Positions 31,253 through 44,947 are shown, numbered from the stretch's first letter. The stretch: 64,000 bases of DNA from Coriobacteriales bacterium OH1046 (GCA_004010535.1 RQYE01000001.1:62001-126000), one strand, 5' to 3'. Translations and numbers: made by a program. The notes: a model not told the origin generated them from the letters alone.

Positions 31253-31260
31253 CGCAGTTT

Positions 31261-31277
31261 GTATGCTCCGAGCATAC
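31261..31277 (+). promoter_or_regulatory. Palindromic operator, copy A
   Basis: GTATGCTC-C-GAGCATAC, a perfect 17-bp palindrome. A possible -10 box TATGGT (31294-31299) starts 25 bases from the centre, five fewer than in the other copies. Gene 31386 follows. Confidence 0.7.
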
Positions 31278-31385
31278 CATGCCCTTCTTCTCGTATGGTA
31301 CCGTTCAACCGGACAGGCGGGGGGCAGCTTATGCGGGGATGGGAAGTCGGGGGAGAAGAGATCCGAGAGCCACACGGAGGTTGGG

Positions 31386-38138: not shown

Positions 38139-38192
38139 GGCGCGGTTTGTATGCGCGGAGCATACAAACCGCGCCTCCTTTCATCCTATGCT
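38139..38192 (+). promoter_or_regulatory. Palindromic activator-type promoter, copy B
   Basis: 16-bp perfect arms (38139-38154 and 38160-38175, inner part GTATGC..GCATAC) form a very strong dyad. TATGCT (38187-38192) starts 30 bases from its centre (38157). There is no -35 box. The sequence after the -10 box, GTG...AGGATC, is shared with copies C and D. Gene 38231 follows. Confidence 0.75.
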
Positions 38193-38839: not shown

Positions 38840-38997
38840 GGACATCCTCGGCCATGCGCTGGCTGCAGGCAGGCGTTTCCCGATCAACGCAGCTTGCCGG
38901 CATCGAGGGATGGATGTGAGCCCGACCGCGAGCGCCGCCGCGTCCAAGGTGGCGCGGCGGGGGTTTCCGTAGCAGTGGCGGGCGGCGGGACCCTTTT
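38840..38997. other. Flank of the invertible segment, no gene
   Basis: Its last 60 bases (TCCAAGG..GGCGCG..CGGGG) match the same-orientation flank at about 44060-44106. Confidence 0.45.
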
Positions 38998-39149
38998 TGC
39001 CACGGAGGGCACTTATTCCGCAGGATTCGGGTGCGGTTCGCCCATCGGGGCCATACACGATCTCCGCCGAGCTGGGCAAACGCGGGCCAAGTTCCCGCCC
39101 GATGGCGGTTCGGCACCGAAAAAGCGCGGAATACGTGCTCTTTGTGGCA
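38998..39149 (+). repeat. Invertible-looking segment, copy 1 (26-bp inverted repeats, 100-bp core)
   Basis: Left arm 38998-39023 (starts TGCCACGGAGGGCACTTATT) and right arm 39124-39149 match as inverted repeats at 20 of 26 positions. The 100-bp core (39024-39123) is about 80% identical to the reverse complement of the core at 44133-44232. The outer flanks of both copies match in the same orientation. The segment lies about 105 bases upstream of promoter copy C. Confidence 0.8.
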
Positions 39150-39254
39150 GATTCGGGAGGTTTCCCTGCCAGCGCATGCCGCCTCTGCTTGAAGCTGCCC
39201 GCAGCGCCCAGTCCGTGCGCCTCCATACCCTTGGTTTAGGGAGAAGCTTCGCAT

Positions 39255-39298
39255 GTATGCTCAGAGCATACAAGCTGCGGGATCTTTCAGCTTATGCT
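39255..39298 (+). promoter_or_regulatory. Palindromic activator-type promoter, copy C
   Basis: GTATGCTC-A-GAGCATAC (39255-39271, centre 39263) and TATGCT (39293-39298), 30 bases from the centre. The sequence after the -10 box contains GTGGCTAGGATC. The gene at 39386 follows. Confidence 0.8.
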
Positions 39299-39385
39299 GT
39301 GGCTAGGATCGCGGGAGACAGGAGAAGGGGTCTCGGGCGATCGCCTGGGACGCGAGGGATGCGTGCAGCAGAAGGGTGAGACGCG

Positions 39386-39687
39386 ATGAAACCGACGACA
39401 AGGGCATTCCCGATCACCCTCATGATGGTAGTCTGCCTCTCCTCGTTTCCAGGATGTGCGGAGAAGATCGAAGCCGTCGAGGGGATCATCGCCGTATCCG
39501 GCACGATCGGCAAACCTGCGCAGGGCGAGCTCGTATCCGTGCCTGTTGATGCGCCTCGCTCCCCTCCGGCGACAGCGGGATCAGCGCGTCTATCGATACG
39601 GGCGAGGACGTGCCCTGTTCTGGCGAGTATACCGCCCGCTTCTACATCGATGGCCGCCTTGTGAACGAGACGACGGGAAGCACGTAG
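39386..39687 (+). pseudogene. Small lipoprotein gene with probable frameshift
   Basis: From ATG 39386 the frame gives a signal peptide with lipobox SSFPGC and KIEAVEGIIAVSGTIGKPAQ, then turns into low-quality sequence and stops at 39664. From 39565 another frame continues with SGDSGISASIDTGEDVPCSG and EYTARFYIDGRLVNETTGST up to TAG at 39685-39687, which reads like a real extracellular domain end. One missing base near the CTCCCCTCC run (39559-39567) would reconcile both. It may be a true lesion or a sequencing error. Confidence 0.6.
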
Positions 39688-39729
39688 GGGAGAAGCCGCA
39701 GAAGATCTGCGGCGGAAACGGGGGCAGCT

Positions 39730-40518
39730 ATGGATGGTGCTCTACGCACAGTGGTTTTCCAAATCCAGGGCAGGAGGCCGGATCAGGCGGAGCTCGGGAG
39801 GCTGTCGAGCCTGCCGTACGGAAGGACCTTGCCGGGTGGAGCGGAGGTCAAGGAGGCGGTCAAGTGGTTCCTCATCGGGACGATCGCCGGCGTTGCCATG
39901 TTCTTGTTCGGACGCTGGGTAATAGAGAGGTTTGCCGGCCCCGGTGTGCTGTTCTTCGGATACGGCGCAGCGTATCTCGCGGCGCCCGCCTCTGTGATCT
40001 TCGGCTTCTCCAGCCTCGGCAAGCTGCTGCGCTCGGCACAGAAGACCAAACCCGCCGATGCGTTCCGTTGGGCGTGGATGGTGTCGATTCTGGGAGATGA
40101 TGAGGTTGGGGAGCGCTTCGGCAAGCTGCCGTATGCCGTGTCCACGATGCGACGGCTCCTTCCAAAGGATATGGCGTATGACGAATCGGCCTTTGGACGC
40201 TACGTCGATGCCCTTCGTTTTTCGATGGCCGCAGCCGCCGATGAATCCGCCTCCGCGCCGAGGGAAGGCGGCTGGAGCGAATCCGGCCCGGATAAGACGT
40301 GCGCGATCACCCGTGACGAGGAGCTGCTTCCCAGTCTGCGGGAGCTGTCGGCGGTCATCACCTATACGGACCGGTTGTCGCGCACAGATGACAGGAACCG
40401 GTCGGAAAGCATGACGGCAGCGAAGCTGGAGCTCCATATCACGCAATGCTACATCCGATCTGGGAAGTACTGGTTCCCATACGACCATATGCCGGCGTAT
40501 CGGAGGGCGGGGCAATGA
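39730..40518 (+). CDS. Hypothetical protein with two membrane helices
   Basis: 262 residues. A polar N-terminus is followed by two hydrophobic helices (KWFLIGTIAGVAMFLFG; VLFFGYGAAYLAAPASVIFG) and a large soluble part with DAFRWAWMVSILGDDEVGE and TAAKLELHITQCYIRSGKYW. I do not recognise the family. It lies in the same transcription unit as the disrupted lipoprotein gene (promoter copy C). Confidence 0.7.
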   Translation: MDGALRTVVFQIQGRRPDQAELGRLSSLPYGRTLPGGAEVKEAVKWFLIGTIAGVAMFLFGRWVIERFAGPGVLFFGYGAAYLAAPASVIFGFSSLGKLLRSAQKTKPADAFRWAWMVSILGDDEVGERFGKLPYAVSTMRRLLPKDMAYDESAFGRYVDALRFSMAAAADESASAPREGGWSESGPDKTCAITRDEELLPSLRELSAVITYTDRLSRTDDRNRSESMTAAKLELHITQCYIRSGKYWFPYDHMPAYRRAGQ

Positions 40519-40624
40519 CTCCGTGCGGGTTCCGTTGCGGGCGATTCCCCGCCAACGGTCCCCCAACCATCATCGTCTCTCATGTAGTGCTGGGCATTCG
40601 AAGCTGAAGGAGGATGAGGTAGAC

Positions 40625-41185
40625 ATGGTATCGCGCACAAGGGAGGATCGTTGTGGGAAGAGGACGCTTTCCCTGCTGGCGGTTCTGGCCACGGCGCTGC
40701 TCTTCATTCTGGCAGGCTGCGGGGTGAAAGGGGAGGGCGCGGATGTGGACTGGCTCTCCTATCGTCTGACCATAGCCGAGCTGAGGGAGATGGAGCACAC
40801 GGAGAGTTTCCAGGATGTCGTCTTTTCCTCAGGTAGCGGAACCCTTCTGATCGGGCCGCTGAGCGGGAGGGAGGTGTTCTCCGATTCCTTCAGCACCCAG
40901 CTTGCCTCGCCACCTTCCGGGAGCAGGTATGTCGTAGCCCGGCTGCTGAGCGCTGGGGAAGGGATCAGCGAAGAGGATATTACAGAGCAAACTGTGGGGA
41001 CAGTCCATCTCAGGGCTTCCTCGGGGGATCGTTTCGAGCCGCTCCTTTACATCATATGGGGTATCGAGTTCGATTCCACTTCTGGTTTATCCACGAACGA
41101 GGAGCAGGAGGGTTTCTGCCTTCTGTTCGCCGTGCCTGAAGACATCGCCTTGCAGGAGCTGGGCGTAGAGGTATCCGACGGCTAA
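40625..41185 (+). CDS. Hypothetical lipoprotein
   Basis: 186 residues from ATG 40625 with an AGGAGG box. An N-terminal signal has lipobox LFILAGC. The mature part has a DUF-like beta-rich pattern (FQDVVFSSGSGTLLIGPLSG; YVVARLLSAGE). No known family is recognised. It is probably co-transcribed with the preceding gene; promoter copy D lies 150 bases after it. Confidence 0.72.
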   Translation: MVSRTREDRCGKRTLSLLAVLATALLFILAGCGVKGEGADVDWLSYRLTIAELREMEHTESFQDVVFSSGSGTLLIGPLSGREVFSDSFSTQLASPPSGSRYVVARLLSAGEGISEEDITEQTVGTVHLRASSGDRFEPLLYIIWGIEFDSTSGLSTNEEQEGFCLLFAVPEDIALQELGVEVSDG

Positions 41186-41338
41186 CCGGTCGGGAGGCGC
41201 GAGCGGTTTATCGGACTTCGGGAATCGCGCATCGGGCATTCCGATCTCTGCCCATCGAAGATGCATGCGGAGGCGGCGGAGCGGATTCTCGGGCCCGCCG
41301 CCTTTCGCTATTCCCGGTCTCGCAAAAAACTCCGGCTT

Positions 41339-41382
41339 GTATGCTCCGCGCATACAAGCTGCGCTTCCTTTCATCTTATGCT
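41339..41382 (+). promoter_or_regulatory. Palindromic activator-type promoter, copy D
   Basis: GTATGCtCCGcGCATAC (41339-41355, centre 41347), extended to GCTTGTATGC/GCATACAAGC arms. TATGCT (41377-41382) starts 30 bases from the centre. GTGGGTGAGGATC follows. It serves the gene at 41469. Confidence 0.8.
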
Positions 41383-41468
41383 GTGGGTGAGGATCACGGC
41401 CCGATGCGGAACGTACGGGAGGGCTCGTGCGGTGGGGTGTCGGGCTTTCTCATCGATAGGAGGAAACC

Positions 41469-42251
41469 ATGATCAAGGCGTATAAGGAGTACTGGAAGGG
41501 ATACATCGACTTCACGGGCAGGACGAGCGTCGGAGGCTACTGGTGGGCGGTGCTGGCGCACTTCCTCGTGACCCTCCCCCTTTCCTTCCTTGTGGGCCTG
41601 GTGGGCGGCTTGAGCAACAATCAACATGTTGTCGTTTCCTTCCTGACCGCCTTTTGGCTGATCTGCTTGCCGCCCTCCTTGGCCATCGCCGTGCGGCGGC
41701 TGCGCGATGCGGGCCGATCCTGGGCGAATCTGTTCTGGGCATTTCTGCCGATCGCAGGTGCCATCGTGCTCATCGTGATGCTCTGCAGGCCGACAAGTTC
41801 CGAAACCTCCTACCGGGCGATCGACCAAGGGGCGGTGAACGGCGTGCCCACCTACCAAGCCTACCCACCGCAGCAGGCCGCATTGCCCGCAGACGGTGGA
41901 CAGGCGGCACAGGCATATGCCCCGGCGGCTGCACGCGCCGTGTCGGCGGAACGACCCGCGCATCTCCCCGGAGCCTTCCGCAAGCTCTCCTTCCGCTCTC
42001 TGAAGCTCTACGCGGGCTCCGGCGTCTGCGATGTGTGCAACAAGCCTTTGTCCGGGCAGAGCGCATATATCGTGCCCAATCCCGTCTTCTACGGTTCGCC
42101 GGAATGGCGCGAGCATTTCCGGCGGGTGAGTGGCGCGATGTTCGCCCGTATGGGTGCCGATGTCGATCGGCAGATCGAGATGATGCAGAGGCGCGATTCC
42201 TCGGCGGGCAGCGCCGTCTGCACGGACTGCATCCACATGTTCGCGGAGTAA
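41469..42251 (+). CDS. DUF805 membrane protein with C-terminal zinc-ribbon-like domain
   Basis: 260 residues with an AGGAGG box. The N-terminal half is a DUF805 domain: YWKGYIDFTGRTSVGGYWW, then two or three helices and RLRDAGRSWANLF. A Pro/Ala linker leads to a C-terminal domain with CDVCNKPLSG and CTDC, which could bind zinc. DUF805 alone is common; the fusion with a Cys4 region is less so. Function unknown. Confidence 0.78.
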   Translation: MIKAYKEYWKGYIDFTGRTSVGGYWWAVLAHFLVTLPLSFLVGLVGGLSNNQHVVVSFLTAFWLICLPPSLAIAVRRLRDAGRSWANLFWAFLPIAGAIVLIVMLCRPTSSETSYRAIDQGAVNGVPTYQAYPPQQAALPADGGQAAQAYAPAAARAVSAERPAHLPGAFRKLSFRSLKLYAGSGVCDVCNKPLSGQSAYIVPNPVFYGSPEWREHFRRVSGAMFARMGADVDRQIEMMQRRDSSAGSAVCTDCIHMFAE

Positions 42252-42304
42252 CGCGGGACAGGAGCCGAACGTGCCGCGCGCTAAGCTTAGAAGGAGGAGA
42301 TCTC

Positions 42305-43687
42305 ATGGATGACAATCGCTCAAGCTCGCCGGTGGGAATGCTGGGACCCCAGCGCATTCCTGCGGCGATCCTGCTGTTGTGGGGTAATCTGTTCGGCTTT
42401 GTATCCGTCGCTTACGGAGGGGCGCTCCCATACATGGATGTGTTCTGGTGGCTGTCGCTCTTCATCCGACTCTCCCTCGTGATCCTGCTCTTCATCGGGA
42501 GGAAGAGCGTGGGGATCCTGATCCCGGTTGCGCTTTATCCGCTGCTGTTTGTCGTTGAGCTATTTGCTGACTTCAGTATCGAGAGTCTGCTGTACACCGC
42601 GATCTGGGCCGTCCTATGCCTGATCGCCATGGCCTCCGTGATCCCGGAGCTCGGGCTCAAAAAACCTTTGCTCAAAGGTCTTGCGTACCTGCCCGCCGGG
42701 CTGAATCTGGCGGTGGGCGCGCTCTTCTTCATCTCTGATCTGGCAAGCGAATGGTTTACTCCTGCGGACGTCCTTTATGGCATGAATTACGTGATCTGGC
42801 CGCTGAGTCTCCTGTTTTTGGCGAAGGCTCTGGTGGAGACCTCCTCCGAGGGTGCCTCCCTGCCCATCCAGACCGGCGGCTCGGTCTACCGAACCTATTC
42901 CCAGCCGGTCTTCAGCCAGCAGCCGGTTTCGGCTCCCGCTCCCGTTCCTGCCGCCGCTGTCCAGAGAACGGCTCCGGGCATCCTTTTGGTCCGCTTCAGC
43001 ATCGACCGGCTGAACGAGTTGAGCGGCCCTTATGGCTTCCAATCCGGGAGGCTGATCGGTCGGGCCGTCCCCGCGTCGCTTCTGGAGGGGATGGTCGTGA
43101 GCGATGGCGATTCAGCGGCGACGCTTGCCGGGCGCGAGTATGTTTGCATCGTCGCCATCGCGTCTGGCGATAGCTCCATCCTGAAAGAGAAGATAGAACC
43201 GCTGATCTTGGCAAGCGGGGAGATCCGGGCTTGCGGCGCTATTCCGCTCACGCAGCTCGTCGGCAGCACAAGCGAGCCTCTGGTGATGGATGGCGTCATA
43301 CGGAACGGCGCGATCGAAGGCCCCGGCGGATGGTGCGCGAACGGCCTGGCGAGCGTGTGGAAGGAGGCCGCAGCGCAGCAGCAGCGTCCTGCTCCCGCAG
43401 CCGATAAGCCGCAGCAGGCCGCCCCCGCCCCTGCCGCCCCTGCGGTCGATAAGAAGGAGATCTACCTCCAGAAGAGCGTGGAGCGCCTGCTCGCGCTGTA
43501 CCGGCAGGTTCCGGGCGGCTTCCCGCGGGACGAGGCGGTCGACGTCCGGGCCATCGGGATGCTGCTCGACGAGGCGGGCGGCATGGACCTGATGCGGCAA
43601 GCGCATGGTCTCTTCGCGCGGCAGAACCCCGGCATGGCGCGGAACCTCGAGAGCGTGTGGGACGGTATCGGGAACTGGATGGGGTGA
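42305..43687 (+). CDS. Hypothetical multi-pass membrane protein
   Basis: 460 residues from ATG 42305, with an AAGGAGGAG box. About five N-terminal hydrophobic helices (up to about 180), then a Pro/Ala/Gln-rich linker, a beta-rich cytoplasmic domain (GILLVRFSIDRLNELSG) and a second linker. The C-terminal domain is helical (YLQKSVERLLALYRQVPGG). No family is recognised. It follows the DUF805 gene by 50 bases and likely shares its promoter. Confidence 0.75.
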   Translation: MDDNRSSSPVGMLGPQRIPAAILLLWGNLFGFVSVAYGGALPYMDVFWWLSLFIRLSLVILLFIGRKSVGILIPVALYPLLFVVELFADFSIESLLYTAIWAVLCLIAMASVIPELGLKKPLLKGLAYLPAGLNLAVGALFFISDLASEWFTPADVLYGMNYVIWPLSLLFLAKALVETSSEGASLPIQTGGSVYRTYSQPVFSQQPVSAPAPVPAAAVQRTAPGILLVRFSIDRLNELSGPYGFQSGRLIGRAVPASLLEGMVVSDGDSAATLAGREYVCIVAIASGDSSILKEKIEPLILASGEIRACGAIPLTQLVGSTSEPLVMDGVIRNGAIEGPGGWCANGLASVWKEAAAQQQRPAPAADKPQQAAPAPAAPAVDKKEIYLQKSVERLLALYRQVPGGFPRDEAVDVRAIGMLLDEAGGMDLMRQAHGLFARQNPGMARNLESVWDGIGNWMG

Positions 43688-43757
43688 TCGCAGATATGCC
43701 CTGGAGGAGGATCGCGATGATGGGCGGCCACTGCAGCGCATTGCGGGAGGTTGGGGC

Positions 43758-43985
43758 ATGAAGCGCCATATCGTCAAGGACGTCATCATCGCGTCTCCGC
43801 CCCTCACGCTGTTCTTCTCCTATGCCTTGCCAGCGCGGGGGTTGTTACTCGCAAGCAAGGCTACGTACAATATGCTGCCAGCTTCCCTGTTCAACCTCAT
43901 CAGTCGTGATCAATGGGGCGTACGGCGCGATGCTCCGGGTGTCGCTCGTGAGCTTTATCAAGGCCAGGAGAAGGAAGTCGGCTAG
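43758..43985 (+). CDS. Small hypothetical protein, possibly frameshifted
   Basis: 75 residues from ATG 43758, with a GGGAGG box seven bases upstream. It has one hydrophobic stretch (ASPPLTLFFSYALPARGLLLAS). Near the end another frame gives INGAYGAMLRVSLVSFIKAR, which looks more like a natural membrane-protein tail, so a frameshift around 43905 is possible. Confidence 0.4.
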   Translation: MKRHIVKDVIIASPPLTLFFSYALPARGLLLASKATYNMLPASLFNLISRDQWGVRRDAPGVARELYQGQEKEVG

Positions 43986-44106
43986 TTGAGGTGTTGAGAT
44001 GCGAAGCACGCGATTATGTGCGGCTTTCTTTATCAAGCCTGTCCAGCAGGCGTCGCCCTATCCAAGGCGGCGCGACGGGGCTTATGGCACGCGATCGGGC
44101 TCTTTC

Positions 44107-44258
44107 TGCCACGAAGGGCACTTATTCCGCAGCTTTTTGGTGGCAAAGCGCCATGGGGCGGAGACTTGACTCGCGTTTGCCCAGCTCAACGGAGGCTGCG
44201 TATGGCCCCGATGGACGAATCGCACCCGAATCCTGCGGAATAAGTGCCCTTCGTGGCA
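44107..44258 (+). repeat. Invertible-looking segment, copy 2 (perfect 26-bp inverted repeats)
   Basis: Arms 44107-44132 and 44233-44258 are perfect 26-bp inverted repeats (outer ends TGCCACGAAGGG and CCCTTCGTGGCA). The core is exactly 100 bp, as in copy 1, but in the opposite orientation. The flanks on both sides match those of copy 1 in the same orientation, and promoter copy E follows about 90 bases later. Confidence 0.85.
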
Positions 44259-44350
44259 GATCCGGGCAATTTCCGTGACAGCGTATGCTGTCCTCTGCTT
44301 GAAACCGATCCGCCGCGCCCAGCCCCGGCCCTCCAAGAAACCCCGCGTTT

Positions 44351-44394
44351 GTATGCTCCGAGCATACAAGCTGCGGAATCTTTCGGCCTATGCT
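44351..44394 (+). promoter_or_regulatory. Palindromic activator-type promoter, copy E
   Basis: GTATGCTC-C-GAGCATAC (44351-44367, centre 44359) identical to copy A. TATGCT (44389-44394) starts 30 bases from the centre. The gene at 44438 follows. Confidence 0.8.
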
Positions 44395-44437
44395 GTGCAC
44401 GAGGTGTTTTCGCAGAGCGTGCAGAAAGGGGATCGTC

Positions 44438-44947
44438 ATGATGGATACGGTTGCGACATTGAAGGGGCTGAGATGCCCGCAATGCGGCTCGGAGGACTTG
44501 GACGTGAATGGAAAGGCCGGGAGCATGGGCAAGGAGATCGCCGGCGTCTTTCTCGGCGGCGCGATCGCCAATTTGGCGGTAAGCAACAGCGCTTCCAAGA
44601 ACGTAGAGACCGTTCCGCTCACTTATACCTGCAAGAACTGCAAGCACAAATTCCAGTCGTTCCCGCTTGCGGCGCAGCAGGAGGACATCCTCGCCACCCC
44701 CTGCACCATCAGCTTCACCCGCGTCTCCAGTTTCGTGGGGGCCTTGGTGGCGCAGGTCGTCTACCTGAACGGGGTCAACTGCGGGGCCGTGAAGAACGGG
44801 AACACGATCACCCTGCAGACCAGCAATCGCTGGAACACCATGTTCGTCACGGATCAGTACGGGGTGGCCTTCAAGAGCGTCTACCGCTTCGAGGCGGTCC
44901 CGGGTGGCACCGTAGCCGTGAGGTTCAAGCGGAAGTTCGTGGAGTGA
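44438..44947 (+). CDS. Zinc-ribbon protein of unknown function
   Basis: 169 residues from ATG 44438; ATG 44441 is equally possible. CPQCGSEDLDV and CKNCKHKF form two zinc knuckles around a Gly/Ala-rich stretch (KEIAGVFLGGAIANLAVS). The C-terminal half is a small beta-rich domain (TISFTRVSSFVGALVAQVVY; YRFEAVPGGTVAVRFKRKF). It may be an adaptor or a stress-type protein; the family is not recognised. First gene behind promoter copy E. Confidence 0.72.
   Translation: MMDTVATLKGLRCPQCGSEDLDVNGKAGSMGKEIAGVFLGGAIANLAVSNSASKNVETVPLTYTCKNCKHKFQSFPLAAQQEDILATPCTISFTRVSSFVGALVAQVVYLNGVNCGAVKNGNTITLQTSNRWNTMFVTDQYGVAFKSVYRFEAVPGGTVAVRFKRKFVE

Follow-up and report, generated by a model that had tools for sequence, protein, structure and literature searches.

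Two segments in the genome of Coriobacteriales bacterium OH1046, whose cores match each other only in opposite orientation, were found to be members of a previously undescribed family of dispersed palindromic repeats and not a special pair. Judging from the sequences, their cores most likely flip through copying errors at a hairpin rather than by a purposeful genetic switch. The two copies, named win38 (38976..39172) and win44 (44085..44280), are probably solo copies of long imperfect palindromes of the MITE/Correia/REPIN-like kind, whose cores flip by replication template switching and which were copied along in a block duplication. A common 200-bp architecture of fixed length, opposite cores at two orthologous loci, homogenisation of the arms within copies and a nested inversion were all observed in this family. 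Positions refer to the window, which is the whole 64-kb stretch of DNA that was analysed (C1:62001-126000 of genome G000, 2.38 Mb in 19 contigs).

Two copies of the repeat in the window

The segments 38998-39151 and 44105-44258 form an inverted match of 154 nt that is 84% complementary. The sequences outside the cores match directly, with 78% identity on the left (38976-39033 and 44085-44142) and 73% on the right (39098-39179 and 44207-44288), while the cores are 80% identical when inverted and 44% when direct (over 80 nt). This is the arrangement that the original prediction had described. Perfect inverted arms around a 100-bp core, placed by it at 44107/44233, were also confirmed and reach 28 bp (44105-44132 and 44233-44260), and 44105-44260 is the sole inverted repeat of its class within the window. 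The distance from GCACTTATTCCGC to its inverted partner is exactly 130 bp in win38 and win44 alike. The unit, earlier given as 152 bp, was observed to be about 200 bp with outer arms of the TGGCA...TGCCA type, and is itself a quasi-palindrome. The features are as follows.

44085..44280, + strand: palindromic repeat win44, located upstream of promoter E with the core in F orientation; one of the nine full copies that several searches gave for G000
44085..44104, + strand: win44 outer arm, A type (TGGCACGCGATCGGG...), from the alignment of copies
44105..44132, + strand: win44 left inner arm (TCTGCCACGAAGGGCACTTATTCCGCAG), perfect inverted partner of 44233-44260
44133..44232, + strand: win44 asymmetric core, 100 bp, apex CGTTTGCCCAGCTC; matches 38996-39151 only when inverted
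44233..44260, - strand: win44 right inner arm, perfect inverted partner of 44105-44132
44261..44280, + strand: win44 outer arm, B type (TCCGGGCAATTTCCGTGACA), from the alignment of copies
38976..39172, - strand: palindromic repeat win38, located upstream of promoter C; relative to its own flanks the core is in R orientation, from alignments; core deleted at the sister-species locus
38996..39151, - strand: win38 inner part, 156 bp (inner arms and core), aligned without gaps to 17 other copies
38931..38975, + strand: win38 left flank, block-duplication remnant, 74% identical to its homologue 44039-44083 (over 45 bp, z 8.2)
39174..39243, + strand: win38 right flank, homologous to 44283-44348 and also common to copies L013 and L037
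39253..39273, + strand: operator-like inverted repeat of promoter C, 21 bp, from a repeat search of the window
44349..44369, + strand: operator-like inverted repeat of promoter E, 21 bp (TTGTATGCTCCGAGCATACAA), from the same search

The operator-like inverted repeat TTGTATGCTCCGAGCATACAA has five copies in the window (31259-31279, 38147-38167, 39253-39273, 41337-41357 and 44349-44369) where none is expected by chance, and four of the five fall in the gene cluster around win38 and win44.

Non-homologous flanks had been named as an observation that would refute the inversion reading, and the flanks were found to be homologous on both sides (z = 8.2 on the left and 9.8 on the right, against shuffles). 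The right-hand flank is also present at L013 (z = 7.3) and L037 (z = 5.1), which are without a regulon promoter; taken alone it is therefore no argument for block duplication, whereas the left flank is one. Since this shared sequence lies beyond the outer arm, the unit may exceed the palindrome. The proposed history of a block duplication followed by inversion of one core, the block having contained the element beforehand, is thus supported by the left flank and by two orthologous pairs with opposite cores, the right flank having lost its value as proof of the duplication and serving as weaker evidence. If a transposable palindrome had inserted independently at win38 and win44, once in each orientation, this would suit a dispersed family whose palindromic ends permit either. 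We consider it extremely improbable, as both flanks of the window copies are homologous, the right flank beyond the outer arm is common to L013 and L037, and elements with opposite cores occupy the same orthologous sites in the sister species.

Copies, size and distribution of the family

The view that no mobile element was involved is not supported, as both segments belong to a dispersed repeat family. Nine full copies were aligned in G000 by DNA search, gapped pattern, flank comparison and covariance model together, and weaker covariance-model matches occur at C1:501818 and C19:42167. Copies number 8-9 in the sister species (G001), where eight were aligned, and further ones are present in the congeners G003, G002 and G004. 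Across the taxonomic family, the covariance model matched palindromes that are built alike but have unrelated arm sequences; they occur in 24 of 140 genomes and 7 of 35 genera, a count that includes many weak matches. A tyrosine recombinase gene at G000:C15:54479-55045, about 1 kb from copy L014, adjoins a partial tRNA-like sequence and is perhaps part of an integrative element.

The unit is an imperfect palindrome of 200 bp with a fixed inner part of 156 bp. Eighteen copies from three species fill 156 alignment columns with zero indels, and some copies in G003 and G004 are 166 bp by their covariance-model coordinates. In each aligned copy an asymmetric core is enclosed by inner arms around GGGCACTTATTCCGCA and, outside these, by outer arms whose bounds are TGGCA/TGCCA. 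Copies that were examined are mostly intergenic, one of them located just downstream of tmRNA in two species. The family is short, non-coding and dispersed with inverted terminal repeats, which are among the properties of a MITE. A six-frame check of 19 aligned copies found stops in every frame, five of the frames having them in 7-17 copies; the sixth stays open in 15 of the 19, all of them related copies.

A joined-flank search for empty sites returned no clean one and no target duplication, only decayed or rearranged sites. As an example, the element is absent from a diverged context at G003:C32 and an apparent remnant of it is present at G004:C3. It is for this reason that we infer the mobility of the palindromes rather than observe it. 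The viral contigs, plasmids and phages searched gave no match to the repeat.

Core orientation at orthologous loci

Seven loci assigned by flank BLAST were compared between species. Six have homologous flanks on both sides (80-97%), and for L042/L045 only the left flank was matched. The core has the same orientation at five loci (win44/L043, L011/L040, L013/L037, L015/L060 and L042/L045), with L011/L040 identical at 100%. At the remaining two it is inverted: L016 and L041 are 74% identical inverted versus 48% in the same orientation, and the corresponding values for C13:59k and L039 are 71% and 41%. The comparison with related genomes that had been proposed as a check therefore revealed opposite orientations at two of seven loci that species have in common. 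Core inversion is real and recurrent, between species and between paralogues, and the family contains segments enclosed by inverted repeats and seen both ways, as in an inverton, between paralogues and, between species, at these two loci. We noticed that L011 and L040 have 97% identical flanks as well as an identical core, where other element loci of both species are about 79-92% identical; perhaps this is due to recent exchange.

Each window copy has a counterpart at the syntenic position in G001. That of win44 is L043, which has the same orientation. At the counterpart of win38 the core is deleted with the arms left, which is the usual instability of palindromes, and the orientation of the shoulder is unchanged. 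The opposite orientation of win38 and win44 thus appears to be older than the separation of the species, and this is an argument against frequent switching; the five kept orientations alone would not exclude it.

Arm homogenisation and a nested inversion

A set of 18 informative positions served to score polarity along every copy. L038 has R polarity in both shoulders and F at its apex, the break falling at a CATCGG dyad, and therefore the inversion occurred at this short dyad and not at the 26-bp arms. About 330 bp from L038, at L032:747-925 in the sister species, there is a second strong palindrome with 50-bp arms and a 79-nt loop; its arms are unrelated and the apex motif is absent.

The arms of a copy resemble each other more than they resemble those of other copies. 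Identity of the outer arms is 0.74 within a copy versus 0.56-0.57 between copies, and that of the inner arms 0.97 versus 0.87. The clearest case is the L011/L040 locus, where the core is identical at 104/104 positions and the left outer arm at 23/24 but the right outer arm at 12/24. The two outer arms match at 12/24 positions in G000 and at 20/24 in G001; the right outer arm in G001 became a near-copy of its own left arm.

Differences between arm pairs are whole Watson-Crick replacements with hardly any G-U intermediates, as predicted by template copying and not by selection on an RNA hairpin. A structured non-coding RNA whose hairpin is kept by selection would account for the strong fold (z-score about -7 on each strand), the fixed length and the many two-sided changes that preserve pairing. 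This explanation is very unlikely, because G-U pairs in the arms are no commoner than A-C mismatches, which points to copying at the DNA level, both strands fold equally well, and an Rfam search of the region gave no family at gathering score.

Template switching as the proposed mechanism

Nearly the whole unit folds back on itself, which would make it possible for a replication fork to change template from one arm to the other. If the change stays within one strand, one arm would be copied onto the other and the two homogenised; if the fork moves to the sister or opposite strand and then returns, the segment between the arms used would be inverted. Since fold-back arms permit such strand switches, a core may flip occasionally over evolutionary time without a dedicated recombinase. 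The copies win38 and win44 would have been carried along in the duplication of a promoter-containing block, and one of their cores would have flipped before the sister species separated.

Template switching between inverted repeats gives arm homogenisation together with spacer inversion (PMC8604942), and both are present here as they are in the mutation of quasipalindromes, a pattern that speaks against a dedicated site-specific switch. The length of the inversions is the weak point of this reading, because the spacer inversions reported in yeast are a few bp long (PMC8604942) whereas those inverted here span 50-100 bp. Core inversion could alternatively arise by RecA-type recombination between arms of 26-60 bp. 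Furthermore, the lack of indels in 18 copies is beyond what template switching alone accounts for.

In a dedicated phase switch, a site-specific recombinase would act at the 26-bp arms to flip the 100-bp core and toggle the downstream regulon promoters. Such a device would be in keeping with the strong inverted arms, the exactly fixed core length, and cores that face opposite ways between paralogues and at some orthologous loci. It would also fit the operator/promoter that, as had been predicted, lies downstream of both window copies, at a distance of 90-100 bp. However, the window-copy orientations are apparently conserved in the sister species (win44/L043 and the shoulder of the win38 orthologue), L038 is inverted at a different, shorter dyad, and most family copies are located away from operator-bearing promoters, including the one near tmRNA. 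No sigma-70-like promoter was found in scans of 38900-39400 and 44000-44460, the core included. A search for Phage_integrase (PF00589) and Resolvase (PF00239) gave no match inside the window, and three PF00589 matches and one PF00239 match elsewhere in G000. We therefore regard a dedicated switch as quite unlikely, and phase variation by the win38 and win44 cores, the function originally suggested for them, is not supported.

Association with a VSR/EDxHD-like protein

Some palindromes found by the covariance model are paired around the gene for a protein of 350-390 aa, here called X, which has relatives in 42 of 60 related genomes. The X profile matches 3r3p, deposited as a mobile intron protein, with an E value of 3.8e-5; we take 3r3p to be the EDxHD enzyme I-Bth0305I. 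Weak matches to DUF559 and to REase_MTES_1575 were each obtained for 5 of 23 members. Residues D236, E249, Y250 and D265 are invariant in the X family, with H256 and R268 near-invariant. By this conservation and the profile match, X is homologous to the catalytic domain of VSR/EDxHD-like nucleases, with its conserved acidic and His residues, and is a putative nuclease. Protein X had no match in PADLOC, in NCBIfam or, as a single sequence, in Pfam. A copy of the X gene at G000:C14:84730-85626 matches with an internal TAG and is possibly a pseudogene.

Thirty X loci, which are best matches and not a random sample, were fetched, and 13 of them have an inverted repeat (50-140 nt spacer) within about 140 bp of the ORF end or overlapping it, several scoring near threshold and without the apex motif. 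The same scan found only the 44105 element in the 64-kb window and one weak match in ten control loci. L015 and L060, two members of the window family from G000 and G001, have X within 50 bp. Palindromes border VSR/EDxHD-like genes on both sides at L135, L138, L139, L141, L142, L147 and L155, and their arms were observed to be shared within a locus and unrelated between loci. Where present, the apex of approximately CGTTTGCGCAGGT is common to different genera, unlike the arms; a looser 7-mer version of it is expected in 16% of shuffled loops. In addition, L133 (G105:C2:19100-21839) contains a hipBA-type toxin-antitoxin pair (HTH_3, HipA_C) between two 300-nt direct repeats (97%), which include a palindrome of the same kind as the family.

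It is possible, though doubtful, that a new type of mobile module is made up of the VSR/EDxHD-like proteins together with the palindromes, in which a nuclease gene is bordered by palindromes with variable arms and a conserved apex of about CGTTTGCGCAGGT is recognised. Solo palindromes would then be non-autonomous offspring, with core flipping as a by-product.

A nuclease of this kind might also initiate ectopic gene conversion, in which another copy serves as template to mend a broken core, in either orientation through the palindromic arms. This stays a competing explanation, as some cores are closer to a copy elsewhere than to their own orthologue. The L043 core is 89% like L042 and 72% like its own orthologue win44, which suggests exchange between copies, and orthologous cores diverge more than their flanks. 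The linkage of relatives of the element to the nuclease-like genes and the conservation across genera of the apex motif but not of the arms would also fit. Against it, L011 and L040 have an identical core and only one outer arm altered, towards its own other arm, the nested inversion of L038 requires no donor, and no clear alternative core donor was found for L016 (best 78%) or C13:59k (best 75%). Conversion is therefore an unlikely source of the inversions, and template switching is preferred.

Comparison with known repeats

The palindromic repeat family is new, but its general kind is known from CREE, REPIN and ERIC; its link to a nuclease-like family is unusual. The CREE/NEMIS repeats of Neisseria are likewise MITE-like and intergenic with a similar size and inverted ends, and inversion of the element has been reported for CREE in N. 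gonorrhoeae (Elbeyioglu et al. 2017, as cited in PMC10969869). CREEs differ by description: in the literature they carry an IHF site and promoters, where no promoter-like site was found here. Their copy number is above 100 and here about 10, and the arm sequences of the present family are entirely different between distant relatives.

The REPIN/RAYT system shares solo palindromic units dispersed between genes and related palindromes beside a nuclease-type gene (PMC3116915). The linked gene here is VSR/EDxHD-like and not a Y1 (HuH) transposase, and the unit is 200 bp where REPs are 20-40 bp. The whole of G000 has a single Y1_Tnp match; the palindrome-linked family matches a VSR-like nuclease instead. 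ERIC and other imperfect-palindrome repeats are also intergenic and of about 127-200 bp but belong to a different lineage, and the present family adds the linkage to a nuclease-like gene and the orthologous core inversion.

For readers of genomes these copies are a warning that opposite cores between inverted repeats need not imply phase variation. With inversions at two nested dyads, arm copying and core deletion seen at orthologous loci, the family preserves a natural history of events resembling template switching in one bacterial lineage. It also ties dispersed palindromes to an abundant and almost unannotated nuclease-like protein family, and this tie makes the origin of such repeats testable.
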